In this document: one piece after another, positions 15,052 to 45,895 of the stretch
How the letters are laid out: the number at the start of each line of letters is the position of its first letter
Position numbering within the stretch: position 1 is the stretch's first letter
Assembly (NCBI RefSeq): GCF_028368935.1
Contig: NZ_JAQNDK010000003.1
Coordinates: 1,240,001 to 1,304,000, forward strand
From: Sorangium aterium
Lineage (GTDB): Bacteria > Myxococcota_A > Polyangia > Polyangiales > Polyangiaceae
Length of the DNA: 64,000 bases
Direction of reading: 5' to 3'
Position numbers and translations under genes: made by a program
Notes under the pieces: model-generated
Told to the model about the DNA's origin: nothing
Databases searched by the model: none
What the model saw: the letters and a program-made list of their open reading frames with translations, nothing else

Positions 15052-15329
15052 GGGTCGTTCCGTGGTCGGCGCGGCGCGCGCGACGTGAGGGGGCGGATCT
15101 GGGCCATCCTAACAGAAGGCGGCCCGCAGCCGAACAGCGAGGCGGCGCGGCGCGTCGCCAGAGCGGCGCGGCGCTCCTCCGACGTGGCGTCCGACAGGGG
15201 ACGCGGCGGCGGGCCATCGCCGCTCCCTTGGGCGCGCGGCCGAGGAAAACCTCCCCAGGAGGAGGGCGAAACTGGGTAGGCTTACGGGGGCGCTGTCGCG
15301 TACGGCGCGATCTGTCTGGAGGAGCCGCG

Positions 15330-18300
15330 ATGACTTTCCCCGCCTTGCCCTGGATGTCCCGCCACCTCGCGCACGCCGGCGCCGCGCGACGCGGGATCTT
15401 GCCGCTGCTCGCGGGCCTGCTCGCGCTCGTGGCGCTCGCGCCCCGGCCGGCGAGCGCGACGCTGTGGGACACGGACAACGACGAGGTCGCGAACGCCGTC
15501 GACAACTGCCCTGGGGTCAGCAACCGAAGCCAGTACGACGGCGATGGCGACGGTCTGGGCGACGCCTGCGACGATGACGACGACAACGACGGCATCTCGG
15601 ATGACGCGGATCTCGACGACGACAACGACGGGCTAGCGGACACTGCCGACAAGTGTCCGACGATTCCCACGCCCATGGCAGCGGATCCAGACGCTGACAG
15701 CGATAACGACGGCGTGCCGAACGTCTGCGACAACTGCGACACGGACCGCAACGAGGATCAGCTCGACAGCGATAGCGACGGGCGCGGGAACATCTGCGAG
15801 ACCGACAACGACGCGGATGGCGACACCGACTTCAACGACAATTGCCTCAACGTCTCGAACGCCGACCAGCGCAATGCCGATGGCGACAACTACGGCGACG
15901 TCTGCGACAACTGCCCTGGTGCATCCAACAACGATCAGCGGGACAGAGACAACGATGGCGTCGGAGACGACTGCGATAACTGCGCAAACGCACCGAACAC
16001 CGATCAGCACAACCCTGACGGCGACCTCTTCGGCGACGTGTGCGACAACTGTCCTGACGCGGCCAATACCAACCAGAATGACAGGGATCATGACGGGATC
16101 GGCGACGCGTGCGACAACTGCCCGGACTCGGCGACGACGAACCAGGCTGACGGCGATGGCGACGGGGTCGGCGACGCGTGCGACAACTGCCCGGACACGC
16201 CCAACCGCGGCCAGGAAGACGTGGATCACGACGGGGTCGGCGACGCGTGCGACAACTGCCGAGACCGCGCGAACACGGACCAGGCGAACAGGGACGGCGA
16301 CACGGTCGGCGACGCGTGCGACAACTGCCCTGGCTCGCGCAACGACGACCAGGTTGACGACGACCGTGACGGGACGGGCGACGCGTGCGACAACTGCCTG
16401 GGCCGCCAGAACGATCAGCAAAACGAGGACGGCGACGCCTTCGGAAACGCGTGCGACCTCTGCCCGTACGTGGCAACCCTGACCCAGGTCGACACCGACG
16501 GCGACGGCTTCGGTGACGCGTGCGACAACTGCCCACGCCTCATCACCGCGAACCAGGCCGATGGCGACGGGGACAATGTCGGCAACGCGTGCGACAATTG
16601 CCCTGAGGTCGCCAACGCCGACCAGATCGACAGCGACGGCGACGGCCTCGGCAACGCGTGCGACAACTGCGCCAGCATCGCCAACGCCGGCCAGCTCGAC
16701 GATGATCACGATGGGGTCGGCAACGTCTGCGACAATTGCCCCTCGACGCCGAACAGGCCGAGCGGGACGAACGCGCAGGACGACAGCGATGGGGACCGGA
16801 TAGGCGACGCGTGCGACAACTGCCCGACCACGGCGAACGCGAGCCAGACGAACACCGACGCTGCCACCGGCGACACGCTGGGCGACGCGTGCGATGACGA
16901 CGACGACGCCGACGGCGTGCCCGACACCGCCGACAACTGCCCGACCGAGCCGAACACGAGCCAGCGCAACACGGACCGGAACCTGCCCGGCGGCGACGCG
17001 CTGGGCGACGCGTGCGACAACGACGACGACGCCGACGGCGTACCCGACGCCACCGACAACTGTCCGCTCCAGCGCAACCTCGATCAGACGAACACGGACG
17101 AGGACCTGACCGACGGCGACGGGTTCGGCGACGCGTGCGATGACGACGACGACGCCGACGGCGTGCCCGATGTGAACGACAATTGCGTCACGACGCCGAA
17201 CAGCGCCCAGGCCAACACCGATCTGCACCTGCCCGGCGGCGACGCGCTGGGCGACGCATGCGACACCGACGACGACGCCGACGGCGTACCCGACGCCGCC
17301 GACAACTGCCAGTTCGCACCGAACAGCACGCAGATCAACACCGACCAGAGCCTCGCCGGTGGCGACGCGCTGGGCGACGCGTGCGACACCGACGACGACG
17401 CCGACGGCGTGCCCGACGCCACCGACAACTGCATCACCACCCCGAACCCGGGGCAGGAGAACAACCCGAAGAACGGGCCCGAAGACGCGCTTGGCGACGC
17501 GTGCGACGATGACGACGACAACGATCGCGTCCTCGACGTCGACGACAACTGCCAGTACGACATCAACACCAACCAGGTCAACACCGACCGCGCCCATGGC
17601 GATGGCGATGACGCCGGCGACGTCTGCGACGACGACGACGACGACGATCTCCTCACGGACGCGGAGGAGGCGGCGCTCCGGACCGATCCGACGAGCGTCG
17701 ACTCCGACGGCGACACCATCGGGGACTTCGAGGAGGTGTTGAACCGCGACAATCCCGCCGATCCGGTCAACAACACCGACGATGACGCGTTCATCGACGC
17801 CGTGGACCCTGACAGCGACGGCGACGAGGTGCTCGACTCCGAAGAGGCCGGGGATGCTCTGCTGAACACGCCGGCAGTCGACACAGACGGCGATGGGACG
17901 CCGGACTACCGGGACACCGACTCGGACGACGATGGCGTGCTCGACGGCGACGACAACTGCCGCCTCATGCAGAACCCGCCGCCTGCGCCGGGCGAGCCGC
18001 AGGTCGACACCGATGGCGACGGCAAGGGCGACGTGTGCGACGGCGACTCGGACAACGACGGCAAGCTCGACGTCGACGACAACTGCCCGAGCGTGGCGAA
18101 CGCCGGGCAGGAGGACGCCGACCGCGACGGCACCGGCGACGCGTGTGATCCAGACGGCGATCCGGACGCCGACGGGGTGATCAACGACGACGACAACTGC
18201 GATTTCGCGGCGAACCCGCCGCCTGCGCCGGGCGAGCCGCAGTCCGACCTCGACAACGACGGCCTCGGCGATCCCTGCGATGATGACGCCGACGGCGACT

Positions 18301-18815
18301 CGATAGCGAACGCGGACGACAATTGCCCGCTGATCGTGAATGCCCAGCAGGAAGACGCCGACGGCGACCGCCACGGCGACGTCTGCGACAATTGCCCGCT
18401 CCTCGCGAACCCTGGGCAGGAAGACACGAACGGCGATGATCTCGGCGATGCCTGCGATCCCGACGGCGACGGTGAGGTGACCGAGACCGACAACTGCCCG
18501 AGCGTGGCGAACCCCGAGCAGACCGACACGGACAAGGACGGCGTGGGCGATGCTTGCGAGACGCCGGATACGACCAGCGGCGGCGGCGGAGGGGCCGGGG
18601 GAGCGGGCGGCGCTGGCGGCATGGGCGGCGCCGGCGGTGAGGCCGTGACGACGACGACGGCGACGAGCGGCGGCGGGACGTCGCCCGATTTCCAAGGCGG
18701 CTGCGACTGCCGCATGGGACGTACGCCGATGCCCCGGGAGGCGTGGGGGATGCTGCTGATCCTCGCCGCCGTGCTCCGGCGGGGAGGCCGGCGGCAGCCG
18801 CGACGGGCGGCGTGA
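15330..18815 (+). CDS. Giant thrombospondin type 3 repeat surface protein
   Basis: The preferred start is ATG 15330 (GGAGGAG just upstream, then a normal signal peptide ending PASA), giving 1161 residues. The mature protein is a rod of 30 Cys-containing thrombospondin type 3 units of the form 'DGDGxGDACDNCPxxxNxxQ' (about residues 45-1080). A short break (EEAALRTDPTSVDSDGD) replaces the Cys units after the 24th. Such Asp-rich repeats bind many Ca2+ ions and stiffen. After a Gly-rich linker the C-terminus reads GGCDC, a hydrophobic segment and an Arg-rich end: a MYXO-CTERM-like sorting tail. It is likely a calcium-stiffened stalk on the cell surface. Confidence 0.85.
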   Translation: MTFPALPWMSRHLAHAGAARRGILPLLAGLLALVALAPRPASATLWDTDNDEVANAVDNCPGVSNRSQYDGDGDGLGDACDDDDDNDGISDDADLDDDNDGLADTADKCPTIPTPMAADPDADSDNDGVPNVCDNCDTDRNEDQLDSDSDGRGNICETDNDADGDTDFNDNCLNVSNADQRNADGDNYGDVCDNCPGASNNDQRDRDNDGVGDDCDNCANAPNTDQHNPDGDLFGDVCDNCPDAANTNQNDRDHDGIGDACDNCPDSATTNQADGDGDGVGDACDNCPDTPNRGQEDVDHDGVGDACDNCRDRANTDQANRDGDTVGDACDNCPGSRNDDQVDDDRDGTGDACDNCLGRQNDQQNEDGDAFGNACDLCPYVATLTQVDTDGDGFGDACDNCPRLITANQADGDGDNVGNACDNCPEVANADQIDSDGDGLGNACDNCASIANAGQLDDDHDGVGNVCDNCPSTPNRPSGTNAQDDSDGDRIGDACDNCPTTANASQTNTDAATGDTLGDACDDDDDADGVPDTADNCPTEPNTSQRNTDRNLPGGDALGDACDNDDDADGVPDATDNCPLQRNLDQTNTDEDLTDGDGFGDACDDDDDADGVPDVNDNCVTTPNSAQANTDLHLPGGDALGDACDTDDDADGVPDAADNCQFAPNSTQINTDQSLAGGDALGDACDTDDDADGVPDATDNCITTPNPGQENNPKNGPEDALGDACDDDDDNDRVLDVDDNCQYDINTNQVNTDRAHGDGDDAGDVCDDDDDDDLLTDAEEAALRTDPTSVDSDGDTIGDFEEVLNRDNPADPVNNTDDDAFIDAVDPDSDGDEVLDSEEAGDALLNTPAVDTDGDGTPDYRDTDSDDDGVLDGDDNCRLMQNPPPAPGEPQVDTDGDGKGDVCDGDSDNDGKLDVDDNCPSVANAGQEDADRDGTGDACDPDGDPDADGVINDDDNCDFAANPPPAPGEPQSDLDNDGLGDPCDDDADGDSIANADDNCPLIVNAQQEDADGDRHGDVCDNCPLLANPGQEDTNGDDLGDACDPDGDGEVTETDNCPSVANPEQTDTDKDGVGDACETPDTTSGGGGGAGGAGGAGGMGGAGGEAVTTTTATSGGGTSPDFQGGCDCRMGRTPMPREAWGMLLILAAVLRRGGRRQPRRAA
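15480..18560 (+). repeat. DNA-level repeat array of the type 3 units
   Basis: The coding DNA is itself a long degenerate tandem array. The core GGCGACGCGTGCGACAACTG recurs with small changes, mostly 60-100 bases apart. The uniform codon choice suggests recent internal duplication. Confidence 0.8.
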
Positions 18816-18935
18816 TTCCACGCCGCGGAAACTGGGCTCTGGCGATCAGCTGAGATATACGCCCGGCGAGGCGCGGCGGCTCCTCGTCGACGCAGCCGTC
18901 CGATATCGTCAATCTTGGTTAGCGAGGCGCAGCTC

Positions 18936-19053
18936 CGTGTGATACGGGCTCAGCCGCCATTCAGGCGAATGAGGCGTACGAAAGTACGCCGCAGCCGCCC
19001 AACGAGGCGGATGAGCCCGCAGCGCACGAAGATGCGCCCCGTTAACTACGGAG
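18936..19053 (+). repeat. Structured repeat, copy 1 (putative RNA element)
   Basis: A 118-nt element between the thrombospondin-3 gene and a lipoprotein gene, with a second 118-nt copy at 24473-24590. The copies share long blocks, including GGGCTCAGCCGCC and GATGAGCCCGCAGCGCACGA. A closing stem pairs CGGGCTCA (18945-18952) with TGAGCCCG (19012-19019). Inside it is a perfect 7-bp hairpin GGCGTAC/GTACGCC with a GAAA tetraloop (18973-18990). A second hairpin GCGCA/TGCGC (19022-19037) follows. It ends 17 nt before the start codon of the next gene. It could be a cis-regulatory leader, small RNA or palindromic mobile repeat. Confidence 0.6.
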
Positions 19054-19070: not shown

Positions 19071-19706
19071 ATGCAGGCATCTCGGTGGATCGCGGTGTGG
19101 ATGGCGATGGGCGCATTCGTCATCGCCGGTACGGGCGCGGGATGCGGCGATGACGAGACCACGGGGGGCGCGACGACCTCGAGCTCGACGACGACCACCA
19201 CCACGGGTGACGGCAGCACGAGCAGCGCGGGAACAGGCGGCTCCGGCGGCGCGGGAACAGGCGGCTCCGGCGGCGCGGGAACAGGCGGCTCCGGCGGCAC
19301 GGGAACGGGCGGCTCCGGCGGTGCGGAAACAGGCGGCGCGGGAGCGGGCGGCTCCGGCGGCGCCGGCGGCACATCGGCCGAGAGCTTCAACTTCACCCTC
19401 CGCGGCACCGGTTACGTTCCCGCCTACACCGCTGGCGACATGGTCTACGTGGCCGTCGTCGCCGCCGGGGACGCCGCGCCGGCCCTGAGCGCTTCGGACG
19501 CGATCGAGGCCGACGGCACGTTCACCGTGACGGGGCAGATACCCGGCGACAAAGCGTACAAGATGCACTGGTACGTGGACCTTTCCCAGAATGGGACTTG
19601 CGACGCAGCTCCCACGGATCACGTCTGGACACAGGACATCCCCACCGTCACGGCGGATATCACGCGCAGCGTCGTACCCAACAGCGCCTTCGGCGACTGT
19701 CCGTGA
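19071..19706 (+). CDS. Small lipoprotein with Gly-rich linker
   Basis: The start at ATG 19071 is fixed by AAGGAGG at 19058-19064, giving 211 residues. The signal peptide ends GTGAGC, a lipobox-like site. A Thr/Ser tract is followed by repeats of GTGGSGGA (tandem 24-bp DNA units) as a spacer. The C-terminal ~105 residues form a compact domain (FNFTLRGTGYVPAYTAGDMV through PNSAFGDCP) with two cysteines, probably all-beta. I do not recognise the family. The layout suggests a lipid-anchored domain held away from the membrane. The structured repeat copy 1 lies immediately upstream in its probable leader. Confidence 0.65.
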   Translation: MQASRWIAVWMAMGAFVIAGTGAGCGDDETTGGATTSSSTTTTTTGDGSTSSAGTGGSGGAGTGGSGGAGTGGSGGTGTGGSGGAETGGAGAGGSGGAGGTSAESFNFTLRGTGYVPAYTAGDMVYVAVVAAGDAAPALSASDAIEADGTFTVTGQIPGDKAYKMHWYVDLSQNGTCDAAPTDHVWTQDIPTVTADITRSVVPNSAFGDCP

Positions 19707-23660: not shown

Positions 23661-24434
23661 GTGAACCCCCCGCTCCATATCGAAGCCGCCGGTGAAAGCG
23701 ACGTTGGCCACCAGCGCGAGCACAACGAGGACAGCTTCGCGGTCGATCTGGATCTCGGCCTCTTCGTCGTCGCGGACGGCATCGGCGGCGCCGCCGGTGG
23801 GGAGGTCGCGTCGCGGATGGCGGTCGACATCGTGCGCTCGTACTGCAAGGACGGCGAGGGCGAGATCACCCAGCCGACGGGGTACGACGAGGAGGTGACG
23901 CCCCTCGAGCTGCGCCTGGTCTCGTCCATCTGGCGCGCCAACGAGCGCATCTTCGAGGTCGGGCAGCGCGACCCGCTCTGCTACGGCATGGGGACGACGT
24001 TCGCGGGCGTCTACGTCGACGGGAGCTCGGCGTGCATCGCGCACGTCGGCGACAGCCGCGTCTACCGCTACCGAAAGCACAGGCTGGAGCGGCTGACCGA
24101 GGATCACTCGCTCTGGAACGAGCACCTGCACAGCGGCGAGCAGCTGCCGGACGATGTGGATCCTCTGCTCGCCCGCAACGTCGTGACGCGCGCGCTCGGG
24201 ATGGGGAAGACCGTCGACGTGGCCACGCGCGTCGAGCGGCCCGAGGCCGGAGATCTGCTGCTGATCTGCTCCGACGGGCTCTCCGGCCCGGTCTCCGAGC
24301 CGGAGATCGCCGAGCTGCTCGCGCAGGAGAGCGACCTCGCCGCGACGGCGCGGTCCCTCATCGACCGCGCCAACCAGCACGGCGGCCCCGACAACGTCAC
24401 GTGCGTGCTCGTGCGGTGGAACGCCGGCGGCTGA
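23661..24434 (+). CDS. PP2C-family Ser/Thr protein phosphatase
   Basis: A 257-residue protein starting at GTG with GAGGAAG upstream. It contains the PPM signature motifs: HQREHNEDSF, LFVVADGIGGAAGGEVAS, GMGTTFAGVY, HVGDSRVYRYR, LTEDHS, LLICSDGLSG and GGPDNVT, with the metal-binding Asp residues present. Length and motif order match stand-alone bacterial PP2C enzymes (Stp/PrpC type). These dephosphorylate targets of Hanks-type kinases, so it is a plausible partner for the kinases at 7580 and 49422, though it is not next to either. It is followed by the second structured repeat copy. Confidence 0.92.
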   Translation: MNPPLHIEAAGESDVGHQREHNEDSFAVDLDLGLFVVADGIGGAAGGEVASRMAVDIVRSYCKDGEGEITQPTGYDEEVTPLELRLVSSIWRANERIFEVGQRDPLCYGMGTTFAGVYVDGSSACIAHVGDSRVYRYRKHRLERLTEDHSLWNEHLHSGEQLPDDVDPLLARNVVTRALGMGKTVDVATRVERPEAGDLLLICSDGLSGPVSEPEIAELLAQESDLAATARSLIDRANQHGGPDNVTCVLVRWNAGG

Positions 24435-24472
24435 CGCGGCAGACAGCGCCGCGCCAGAGCGGGATGCAGGCT

Positions 24473-24590
24473 CGTGTGAACCGGGCTCAGCCGCCGGGCA
24501 AGCGAGTGAGGCGCGCGAAGGTAGGCCTCGACGAGCCGAACGACGGGGATGAGCCCGCAGCGCACGACGATGCGCCCTGCTCTACGGGAG
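24473..24590 (+). repeat. Structured repeat, copy 2 (putative RNA element)
   Basis: A second 118-nt copy of the element at 18936-19053, same strand. The closing stem CGGGCTCA (24482-24489) with TGAGCCCG (24550-24557) and the 3' hairpin GCGCA/TGCGC (24560-24575, six-base loop) are conserved exactly. The inner hairpin differs: GAGGC (24508-24512) pairs with GCCTC (24525-24529), so an inner stem persists with different sequence. It sits between convergent genes and overlaps the last 9 bases of the imelysin gene, so here it would lie in a 3' untranslated region. Confidence 0.6.
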
Positions 24591-25643
24591 CGTCTTGAGC
24601 CGGAGCAGATCGGCGGACCTCGTCATGTCGCTGGCGAGCGTGCCCGGGGTCGCGTCGTCGCTCTCGTGCTCCACGAGCGAGAACAGCCTCCCGAACGGCG
24701 TCGCGAGCTGCTCGTCGGTCGGCTCCGCCTCGCTCCACCCCTCCGGAAGCGGCGGCAGCGCGTCGCCTTCGATCGCGTCGTACGCGCTCGACAGCCGCTC
24801 GAAGCCGTCGAGCACCGCCTTGTCGACCTCCGCGCCTTCGGCGCCCTTGGTCAGGATCCACGGCTGGAAGGCCTCGTAGGTCGCCACGCCGGCCGCGACG
24901 TTCGCGCGCATGTCGGCGAGCGTGTACTGCGCGTAGCGCGACTCCTCCTCTCCGGTCGCCGCCTTGCTTGTCTTCTCCACCTGCTCCGCGATCGAGGCGA
25001 TGACCCCGCGGTAGGCCGACGGCGCGTCGAGCGCCAGCGAGCGGAAATCCGATTGCATCTTCGCCGCGTCGGCCGCGAGGCGCGCGCAGAGCTCGTCCTT
25101 GAACGAGGCGGCCTCGGCCTCGGTGGCAGGGAAGGCGGCCTCGCTGTAGTTGTCGAGCTCGGACTCGAAGGCGAGGACGGGCTCCGGGATCGCGTCGGCC
25201 CAGAGGATGCGCTCGATGGCGTGCACGCCGGTCACCCCCTCACCGTCGAAGAGGTCGTCGTCGGCCTCGACCTCGATGAACGCGTCGTAGCGGGCATCCG
25301 TCGAGTAGTCGAGATCCGGAAAGACGACCGCGATGGCTCCTTCGATGCTCTCGTAGGCTTGCCGTGCCTTCTTCCACTCGGCCTTCATGGCATCGACGGC
25401 CTCCTTGTCGCTCGTCGCGCTCCACCCGTCGGCATCTGGCGCGGGCGCGGCCGCCTGAAGCGCAGCCGTGGCGGCGGCGAACTGGTCGATGTTGCCCTGG
25501 ATGAAGGTCTTCACGTCGGACACGGCCTGCTGCTCGTACTCCGCGTCGGTGAGCAGCGTCTCGTTGTCGCTTCCACACGCAGGAAGCGAGAGGGCGGCGG
25601 CGGCGATGGCCAGACCGGACCGCAAGCGGGCGGGGATGTGCAT
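24582..25643 (-). CDS. Imelysin-family (M75) iron-linked lipoprotein
   Basis: The start at ATG 25643 has AAGGAG ten bases upstream, giving 353 residues. The signal peptide ends SLPACGS, a lipobox. The mature domain carries the imelysin GxHxxE signature in GVTGVHAIERILWADA (about residue 135) and the long helical bundle of the family. Imelysin proteins (IrpA, EfeO-type) are periplasmic or outer-membrane factors of iron or metal uptake; no protease activity is established for most. The di-heme oxidoreductase gene lies just upstream on the same strand, a known pairing, so the two probably form an operon. Confidence 0.85.
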   Translation of the reverse strand: MHIPARLRSGLAIAAAALSLPACGSDNETLLTDAEYEQQAVSDVKTFIQGNIDQFAAATAALQAAAPAPDADGWSATSDKEAVDAMKAEWKKARQAYESIEGAIAVVFPDLDYSTDARYDAFIEVEADDDLFDGEGVTGVHAIERILWADAIPEPVLAFESELDNYSEAAFPATEAEAASFKDELCARLAADAAKMQSDFRSLALDAPSAYRGVIASIAEQVEKTSKAATGEEESRYAQYTLADMRANVAAGVATYEAFQPWILTKGAEGAEVDKAVLDGFERLSSAYDAIEGDALPPLPEGWSEAEPTDEQLATPFGRLFSLVEHESDDATPGTLASDMTRSADLLRLKTLP

Positions 25644-25724
25644 GATGTTCGAGCTCCTTGTCACCGCTCGCGCGGGGCGAGCGCGCGATGTGGATTGGTG
25701 CGCGTGCGTCGCGGTGGACGTCGA

Positions 25725-38630: not shown

Positions 38631-38799
38631 CTCTGCTGCGGGAAGTCGGCCGGGGAAGCGAACCGCCAAGCCGCCAAGGGCGCCAACAAAACCGGGGAAT
38701 AGGGGGGATGCCCGGACGGCCCCTTTTCCCCTCTCCCCTTGGCGTCCTTGGCGGCTTGGCGGTTTTTCTGCTGATCCGGGGCAAATTCCCGCAGTAGAG
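38631..38799. repeat. MITE-like nested inverted repeat
   Basis: A 169-bp element between two convergent genes. The outer arms (38631-38644 and 38786-38799) match at 13 of 14 positions. The inner arms are a perfect 19-bp inverted pair: AACCGCCAAGCCGCCAAGG at 38661-38679 and its complement at 38746-38764, with a 66-base spacer. The 'CGCCAAGG' motif is a recurrent intergenic repeat in many bacterial genomes (recalled). It has no coding capacity. It could be a miniature mobile repeat now serving as a bidirectional terminator. Confidence 0.65.
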
Positions 38800-45458: not shown

Positions 45459-45535
<77 letters not shown>

Positions 45536-45701
45536 AGACGTCAGCGATACGATCGCTCGGCGAGCGCCGAGCCTGCTTGGCTTTCCTTCCCATGAGCAAG
45601 CTCGCCACGAGCCAGACCTCCTCGCCTGGCCTGCACCGAGCGATGCAAGCCAACCGAGGGAGGCTCAGGCGAGCATCGGCTCAGATGACAGGGAAGAAAG
45701 C

Positions 45702-45778
<77 letters not shown>

Positions 45779-45823
45779 AGACTGACATCACTACAGATCA
45801 CCCAGGCCCCTAAACCCAGGAAG

Positions 45824-45895
45824 TGGGCGGGACAGGGGTCGAACCTGCGACCATCGGCTTGTAAGGCCGACGCTCTGCCGCTGAGCTACCCGCCC
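45824..45895 (-). tRNA. tRNA-Val (TAC)
   Basis: A cloverleaf with acceptor GGGCGGG/CCCGCCC, anticodon loop CTTACAA (TAC), T-arm GCAGG/CCTGT with loop TTCGACC, and discriminator A. The CCA end is not encoded, unlike the two tRNA-Asp genes. It is the first gene of the tRNA operon. Confidence 0.95.

Follow-up and report, generated by a model that had tools for sequence, protein, structure and literature searches.

Two non-coding segments, lying 5.5 kb apart on the same strand of the window (the whole stretch of 64,000 nucleotides of Sorangium aterium DNA that was analysed), had been predicted from their letters to belong to a structured RNA or a palindromic repeat family. The question raised by this locus is which of these the two segments are, and whether they serve the host or move within its genome. 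Both segments, here termed W1 and W2, were present as claimed.

Fold and position of the two copies

W1 and W2 were each found to form one long hairpin, in which an outer stem with mismatches (approximately 37 nt per arm) is followed by an inner stem and a tip, with folding energies of -84.3 (W1) and -70.2 (W2) kcal/mol. The full W1 element lies at 18921-19043 on the plus strand (its fold reaching about 18917-19046), with the 5’ arm at 18921-18957, the tip hairpin at 18973-18990 and the 3’ arm at 19007-19043. W2, which is more decayed than W1, occupies 24458-24581 on the same strand, with arms at 24458-24494 (5’) and 24545-24581 (3’) and a tip with a partly broken stem at 24510-24527. The boundaries in the original prediction were shifted, as both hairpins begin some 15 nt beyond the 5’ limit then given. 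Its closing stem CGGGCTCA/TGAGCCCG was located in W1 (18945-18952/19012-19019, interior 59 nt) and in W2 (24482-24489/24550-24557, interior 60 nt). The pair GCGCA/TGCGC likewise occurs in both copies (W1 19022-19026/19033-19037; W2 24560-24564/24571-24575); it is not the separate 3’ hairpin that had been proposed, being the 3’ half of the outer arm, with its partner lying to the left of the start then given. The tip GGCGTAC-NNNN-GTACGCC, common across phyla, is whole in W1, where the perfect inner stem capped by GAAA proved correct (GGCGTAC-GAAA-GTACGCC), and is damaged in W2, whose inner stem (GGCGCGC/GTAGGCC) was found to be decayed and not re-paired with another sequence as had been supposed.

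W1 is flanked by an ORF with thrombospondin-3 repeats (15228-18815, plus strand) and an ORF without a Pfam match starting at 19071 (plus strand). W2 lies between an ORF for a PP2C phosphatase (23661-24434, plus strand) and a convergent ORF for an imelysin (M75; 24582-25664, minus strand), the stop codon of which (TAG, minus strand, 24582-24584) is touched by the 3’ arm of W2. A different long inverted repeat, as far as seen outside the W family, was identified at 38661-38764 (45-nt arms, 82% complementary, with AACCGCCAAGCCGCCAAGG at its end), and three consecutive tRNA genes are situated on the minus strand at 45462-45895.

Copies in the Sorangium genome and empty sites in congeners

A search of the genome assembly containing the window (G000; 13.47 Mb, 7 contigs) with W1 as query identified at least 26 places with a W element, 17 of them near full length and the other 9 partial, with some copies consisting of left or right halves only. 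This number was derived from 28 rows, two being the reverse reading of palindromic copies, and is a minimum, with 40 of 75 first-look candidates scored. The terminal pattern (up to one mismatch) gave 13 forward and 19 reverse matches, compared with 0 and 1, respectively, for its reversed version, and a model built from 16 copies including W1 and W2 gave bit scores of 128.5 (W1) and 95.6 (W2) in the window. The likeness of W1 and W2 is not due to chance given these model scores, the number of places and the excess of the terminal pattern over its reversed control, and the further copies that a repeat family would possess do exist. Among the best-preserved copies, L014 and L015, the arms are complementary at 36 of 37 positions. 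The W version was found with a significant match in 4 of 39 sampled genomes of relatives, including G000, and in many copies only in G000.

For 10 of the 15 copies prepared, the flanks were joined without the element and searched for in five congeners. Matches spanning the junction were obtained for 8 of the 10 (W2, L009, L010, L011, L012, L013, L014 and L016; 74-91% identity), whose flanks are therefore continuous DNA in congeners, identifying these copies as insertions. The joined flanks of W1 gave a 72% match in one congener genome only, and those of L015 were matched only in pieces. Inspection of the flank alignments of seven copies showed the cleanest case to be L014, in which the relative (L275) reads GGGGCC-TGA-CGG and G000 reads GGGGCC-TGA-TAGC....GCTA-TGA-CGG. 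Exact junctions were rarely clear, since the intergenic DNA of Sorangium has diverged in these relatives. Target-site duplications were found to be inconsistent: TGA is repeated at L014, and elsewhere YA..YA occurs with mismatches, the other W flanks tending towards a left YA and a right YAG and often being unequal.

A second Sorangium subfamily (S2) was also observed (L384-L388, L356, L357, L358, L360, L366, L377 and L389-L393). The inner part of S2 copies is near-constant, and the outermost 10-15 bp vary between copies yet mostly remain complementary. One compensated pair was identified at an orthologous S2 site between G000 and G004 (L385 and L423), and the alignments bearing on a possible snap-back origin of the outer arms from the target were strongly diverged. 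In strain So0157-2 (L428; G190:C1:8123800-8127600), a group II intron splits an S2 hairpin right after the tip (RF02001 match; 523-aa ORF with an RVT_1 match), the other half of the hairpin lying beyond it on the minus strand (L428:611-632), which suggests that the intron used the tip hairpin as its landing site. A further reverse-transcriptase ORF (RVT_1; L026:2342-3970), which we take to be retron-like from its motif, terminates with TGA immediately ahead of a half W element, and this adjacency is probably a coincidence.

Tip, loops and pairing across bacteria

Within the order, the tip (up to one mismatch) was identified in 13 of 183 genomes, with 35 matches compared to 5 for the reversed pattern. 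Most of the matches outside the W family were tips of long hairpins with arms unrelated to those of W. The part common across phyla is GRCGTA..TACGYC, and a cross-species scan with the pattern GGAGGCGTACNNNNGTACGYCGA, using one genome per species, gave at least 120 stretches. Among the matches listed, 80 stretches were titled and 75 of these had enough flank for a test of the 45-nt arms beyond the tip, which lay outside the search pattern. The arms beat all 100 mononucleotide shuffles in 61 of the 75 and failed to do so in 14. By group, again among the matches listed, this applied to Planctomycetota (21/26), Myxococcota (10/12), Bacillota (11/13), deltaproteobacterial groups (8/11), Nitrospira (3/3), unspecified Proteobacteria (4/4), other Actinobacteria (0/2), and Bifidobacterium, Helicobacteraceae, Gemmatimonadaceae and Acidobacteria (1/1 each). 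The phylum labels are those of record titles, mostly of metagenome-assembled genomes (MAGs), which may carry foreign contigs; several stretches share one MAG and so are not independent, and the breadth across phyla is a lower bound. Twenty-five genomes picked for having a match were found to carry between 1 and 29 tips each (up to one mismatch) and none of the reversed pattern. A model (R1; 11 of 25 genomes) was left out of copy numbers, as it may reward any long hairpin.

Once grouped at less than 60% identity, the arms of 72 clusters gave a score of 30.2, compared to 10.7 for dinucleotide shuffles, with 46 clusters beating all 100 shuffles and 26 not. Of the two arm-swap controls, the first suffered from contamination with related copies, 20 pairs being reached by 94 of 342 controls as well, and in the second only 32 of the 72 clusters lay above its 99th percentile. 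Shuffles took the place of these controls, being dinucleotide for the 72 clusters and for the 62 families described below and mononucleotide for the 75 stretches.

Alignment of ten members from different groups, hand-picked for canonical layout, revealed invariant AGGC, GGAGGCGTAC, GTACGTCGA and AAC, separated by stems that are unrelated in sequence; of these parts, the tip was in the search pattern and the loops were not. The loops were then scored in all 62 families (less than 70% alike, hairpin score of at least 25) against dinucleotide shuffles, the motifs themselves having been spotted beforehand in a portion of these data. NAGGC was found 9-34 nt before the tip in 42 of the 62 families, compared with 13.1 in shuffles (at most 23), and AACG followed 9-32 nt beyond the tip in 37, compared with 15.5 (at most 25); on swapped sides these fell to 4 and 2 families, respectively, as in shuffles. 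The W family was found to possess the same parts on shorter inner stems, with GCTAGGCA on the 5’ side and GAACGACGC on the 3’ side. The same tip and loops thus recur across phyla on arms that are complementary within each hairpin and unrelated between families.

Mismatches within the stems were scored on the strand that carries GGA ahead of the tip. If neither strand matters, transitions in Watson-Crick pairs should yield G-U and A-C equally often. Among isolated stem mismatches of 51 hairpin-forming clusters (less than 60% alike), G-U outnumbered A-C by 46 to 16, with 26 clusters favouring G-U, 9 favouring A-C and 16 ties (p=0.006). With a less strict redundancy cut, an initial count over 62 clusters gave 53:19, and a separate set of 19 Geobacteraceae elements gave 27:4 (12:0 by element). 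This preference between families indicates that selection acts on the fold of a single strand with defined polarity, although a G-U bias would also be expected from an RNA function. No such bias was found among the landed W copies, 16 of which in G000 gave 21:23 without ancestral mismatches (45:25 with them). Other within-family counts were mixed, ranging from 9:1 to 5:6, with a sum of 34:18 over six families of at least five copies each (p=0.036), one of these sets being a W subset and one a Geobacter set (21 rows, three of them more diverged). The unbiased W count fits landed, unselected copies with moderate strength, as the other families do not all follow.

Covarying pairs, as expected for conserved pairing, were also identified (12 pairs, with 22 cells changed on both sides; the shuffle means were 7.1 and 10.9, respectively). 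With the ancestral state of each arm set to its majority base, diagnostic blocks of the other arm were found in the 5’ arm of L010, L018 and L019, in the 3’ arm of L013 and L017, and in both arms of L014 and L015. Blocks of this kind are characteristic of a known mutational process, quasi-palindrome correction, and due to such arm-to-arm copying, part of the W covariation arose without selection. The copying leaves the conserved loop motifs unexplained.

A variant tip, GGCGTAGCNNNGCTACGYC, was identified in 20 of 39 Geobacteraceae genomes, with 120 matches in one of these (G208), both strands being counted and palindromic sites therefore twice. This variant includes the reverse complement of a palindrome described from Geobacter metallireducens, for which 24 intergenic, multicopy ‘predicted short RNA elements’ with the central palindrome GRCGTAGCGCTGCTACGCC are reported (PMC2700814); the passages of that paper covered here describe them for Geobacteraceae and Desulfotalea. 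The reverse complement of GRCGTAGCGCTGCTACGCC is the tip of the G208 hairpin family (at least 18 close copies in the stretches of that genome examined), and the layout is the same. W1 differs in the interior of the tip, carrying the variant GGCGTACGAAAGTACGCC, a comparison made through the legend text of that paper. Judged by sequence, W1 appears to belong with the Geobacter elements at superfamily level. One lineage is accordingly already published, in the passages covered, as an unexplained multicopy sequence (PMC2700814), and these passages draw no link to myxobacteria, Clostridia, Planctomycetes or the long fold. No description of the hairpin superfamily, and none linking the Geobacter lineage to others, was found in the open-access literature searched. 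The suggestion that no named family has this layout was borne out by Rfam 15, which gave no match over the elements at gathering score (15 loci; 6 loci with E up to 0.05); matches for L015 were far below gathering, for example to microRNA precursors (best 53 bits, cut-off 168).

Other carriers of the tip were observed. Six viral contigs carry it, five of them without convincing arms, and searches returned no match among plasmids and phages for one W copy and none among plasmids for one Geobacter copy. In Bifidobacterium catulorum (L234-L240), hairpin tips are arranged in tandem 79-169 bp apart, with units that repeat the 5’ arm, the tip and the inner 3’ arm, an arrangement that replication slippage at a hairpin would produce. 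In a Clostridia MAG (L189), several hairpins, apparently nested, lie in the spacers of a single ribosomal protein operon.

Proposed mobility and its alternatives

Considering the insertions, the recurrence of tip and loops and the polarity of pairing, W1 and W2 are probably landed, decaying copies of a non-autonomous mobile hairpin that is moved via a folded single strand. The element, about 123 bp in length, would be a single long hairpin in which the tip and the internal loops are conserved; it would be propagated in trans as a folded single strand of one polarity (ssDNA or RNA), recognised by a protein at the tip stem and at the mismatched loops, and would land mainly in intergenic DNA 3’ of genes. 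We infer a dedicated enzyme, a single-stranded intermediate and the lack of a host function for W copies.

Candidate mobilisers were sought both beside the hairpins and in carrier genomes. Clustering of proteins from 126 scan loci for an autonomous partner gave small groups only, the largest being ribosomal proteins (3-5 loci) and an ABC transporter (5), and the commonest Pfam families were present in only 2 of 99 neighbouring proteins (99 of at least 113 neighbours listed). The Y1 family of RAYT type (PF01797) was present in 31 of 40 genomes tested, with no match in the Sorangium-group carriers G000, G003, G190 and G191 or in the carriers G194, G186 and G196, which rules out a RAYT as mobiliser in G000. 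Y2_Tnp was found in 5 and RVT_1 in 8 of 14 carrier genomes, and both were absent from G194, G196, G186, G183, G216 and G227, some of these being drafts or MAGs; a Y2 (Helitron/IS91-like) or reverse transcriptase as common mobiliser is ruled out by these absences. None of the three families was detected in G194 (main scaffold 3.68 Mb), G196 (a draft Bifidobacterium) or G186 (a partial MAG). The lack of a mobiliser among these candidates, the inconsistent target-site duplications and the mixed within-family G-U counts are against the mobile reading.

The genomic context of 138 elements was examined using simple ORF calls, 32 lying inside a predicted ORF, 18 being dropped and 88 lying between ORFs within 500 bp. 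Of these 88, 33 were situated between convergent genes, 52 between tandem genes (20 sense, 32 antisense) and 3 between divergent genes, as raw counts without a background rate. The scarcity in divergent spacers could reflect a 3’-UTR function. Several Clostridia copies were identified in ribosomal-protein operons, where they could be functional, and copies occur in grpE-dnaK operons too. This placement, along with the strand-specific G-U tolerance, the loop motifs conserved across families and the interpretation of the Geobacter elements as short RNAs (PMC2700814, passages covered), would fit a structured regulatory RNA (3’-UTR or operon-internal) that is selected at each locus and dispersed incidentally. 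Such an RNA is considered unlikely, as sense and antisense placements are both common, neighbouring genes are not common to the copies, congeners possess empty sites, truncated halves and tandem duplications occur, and W copies have no G-U bias outside ancestral mismatches. The original prediction therefore stands with regard to a palindromic repeat family with further copies and covarying pairs; a host RNA at W1 and W2 is not supported, because of block copying and the unbiased W counts, and a fold-dependent mobile element fits these loci better than a host RNA gene.

Some properties are those of a classical MITE, a derivative of a larger insertion sequence that is moved by a transposase recognising its terminal inverted repeats: the elements are non-autonomous, intergenic and dispersed, have CTAG-like flanks and carry long inverted repeats at their ends, which in L014 and L015 are near perfect. 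This origin is improbable, since arms vary between families around a conserved centre (the reverse of a MITE), the target-site duplication is inconsistent and no parent element was found in G000. There, no two of the 32 terminal matches lie 0.5-10 kb apart on a contig, as would the ends of a longer element bearing a transposase; of three new unpaired matches, two were truncated ends and one lay inside a reading frame. A reading as inert palindromes, whose complementarity would be maintained by quasi-palindrome correction (template switching) in the absence of selection, is very improbable; it agrees with the exchanged blocks in the W copies above and the compensated S2 pair (L385, L423) but leaves the insertions, the strand-specific G-U bias and the tip and loop motifs conserved across phyla unexplained; such correction probably acts in addition to mobility.

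The mobile hairpin was further compared with known dispersed palindromes. REPINs and REPs moved by RAYTs are likewise short, non-coding, dispersed hairpins located 3’ of genes and presumed to be moved in trans; they have GTAG-tagged ends, whereas the hairpins here have a conserved centre and a length of about 120-150 nt, and G000 is without a Y1 transposase. Many W copies carry GTAG before GCGCA in the 3’ arm (W1 and W2 read GCAG); by eye, GTAG is no general feature of the other families, and GTAG beside a palindrome of 20-40 bp, as in REPIN/RAYT systems, was not found. CGTC-tagged REPs are also cross-phylum palindromes without a dedicated transposase, described in the passages covered as 20-40 bp long with an 8-9 bp stem starting with AT and a CCA tail (PMC3733652). 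Compared by eye with that description, the tip here differs in starting with GG, the hairpin is several times longer, and the tag, AT stem and CCA tail are lacking (PMC3733652, passages covered). By these tests the hairpin works like a REPIN or a MITE, yet is a member of neither.

More tentatively, the hairpins may constitute an ancient mobile superfamily spread over many phyla and inherited as a folded single strand, with a constant tip and loops, arms free to change while they remain paired, and an enzyme outside Y1, Y2 and reverse transcriptases. The hairpins look like a class of mobile elements that has received little recognition. If this is true, one hairpin would account for ‘multicopy intergenic sequences’ and ‘predicted short RNAs’ scattered over Geobacter, Sorangium, Clostridia, Planctomycetes and further groups; the tip and loops would provide a search handle where Rfam 15 is without a model, and the search for a mobiliser would become directly testable. 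It would also caution that covariation seen in intergenic hairpins of bacteria may stem from mobility and arm-to-arm copying, and not from a host RNA.
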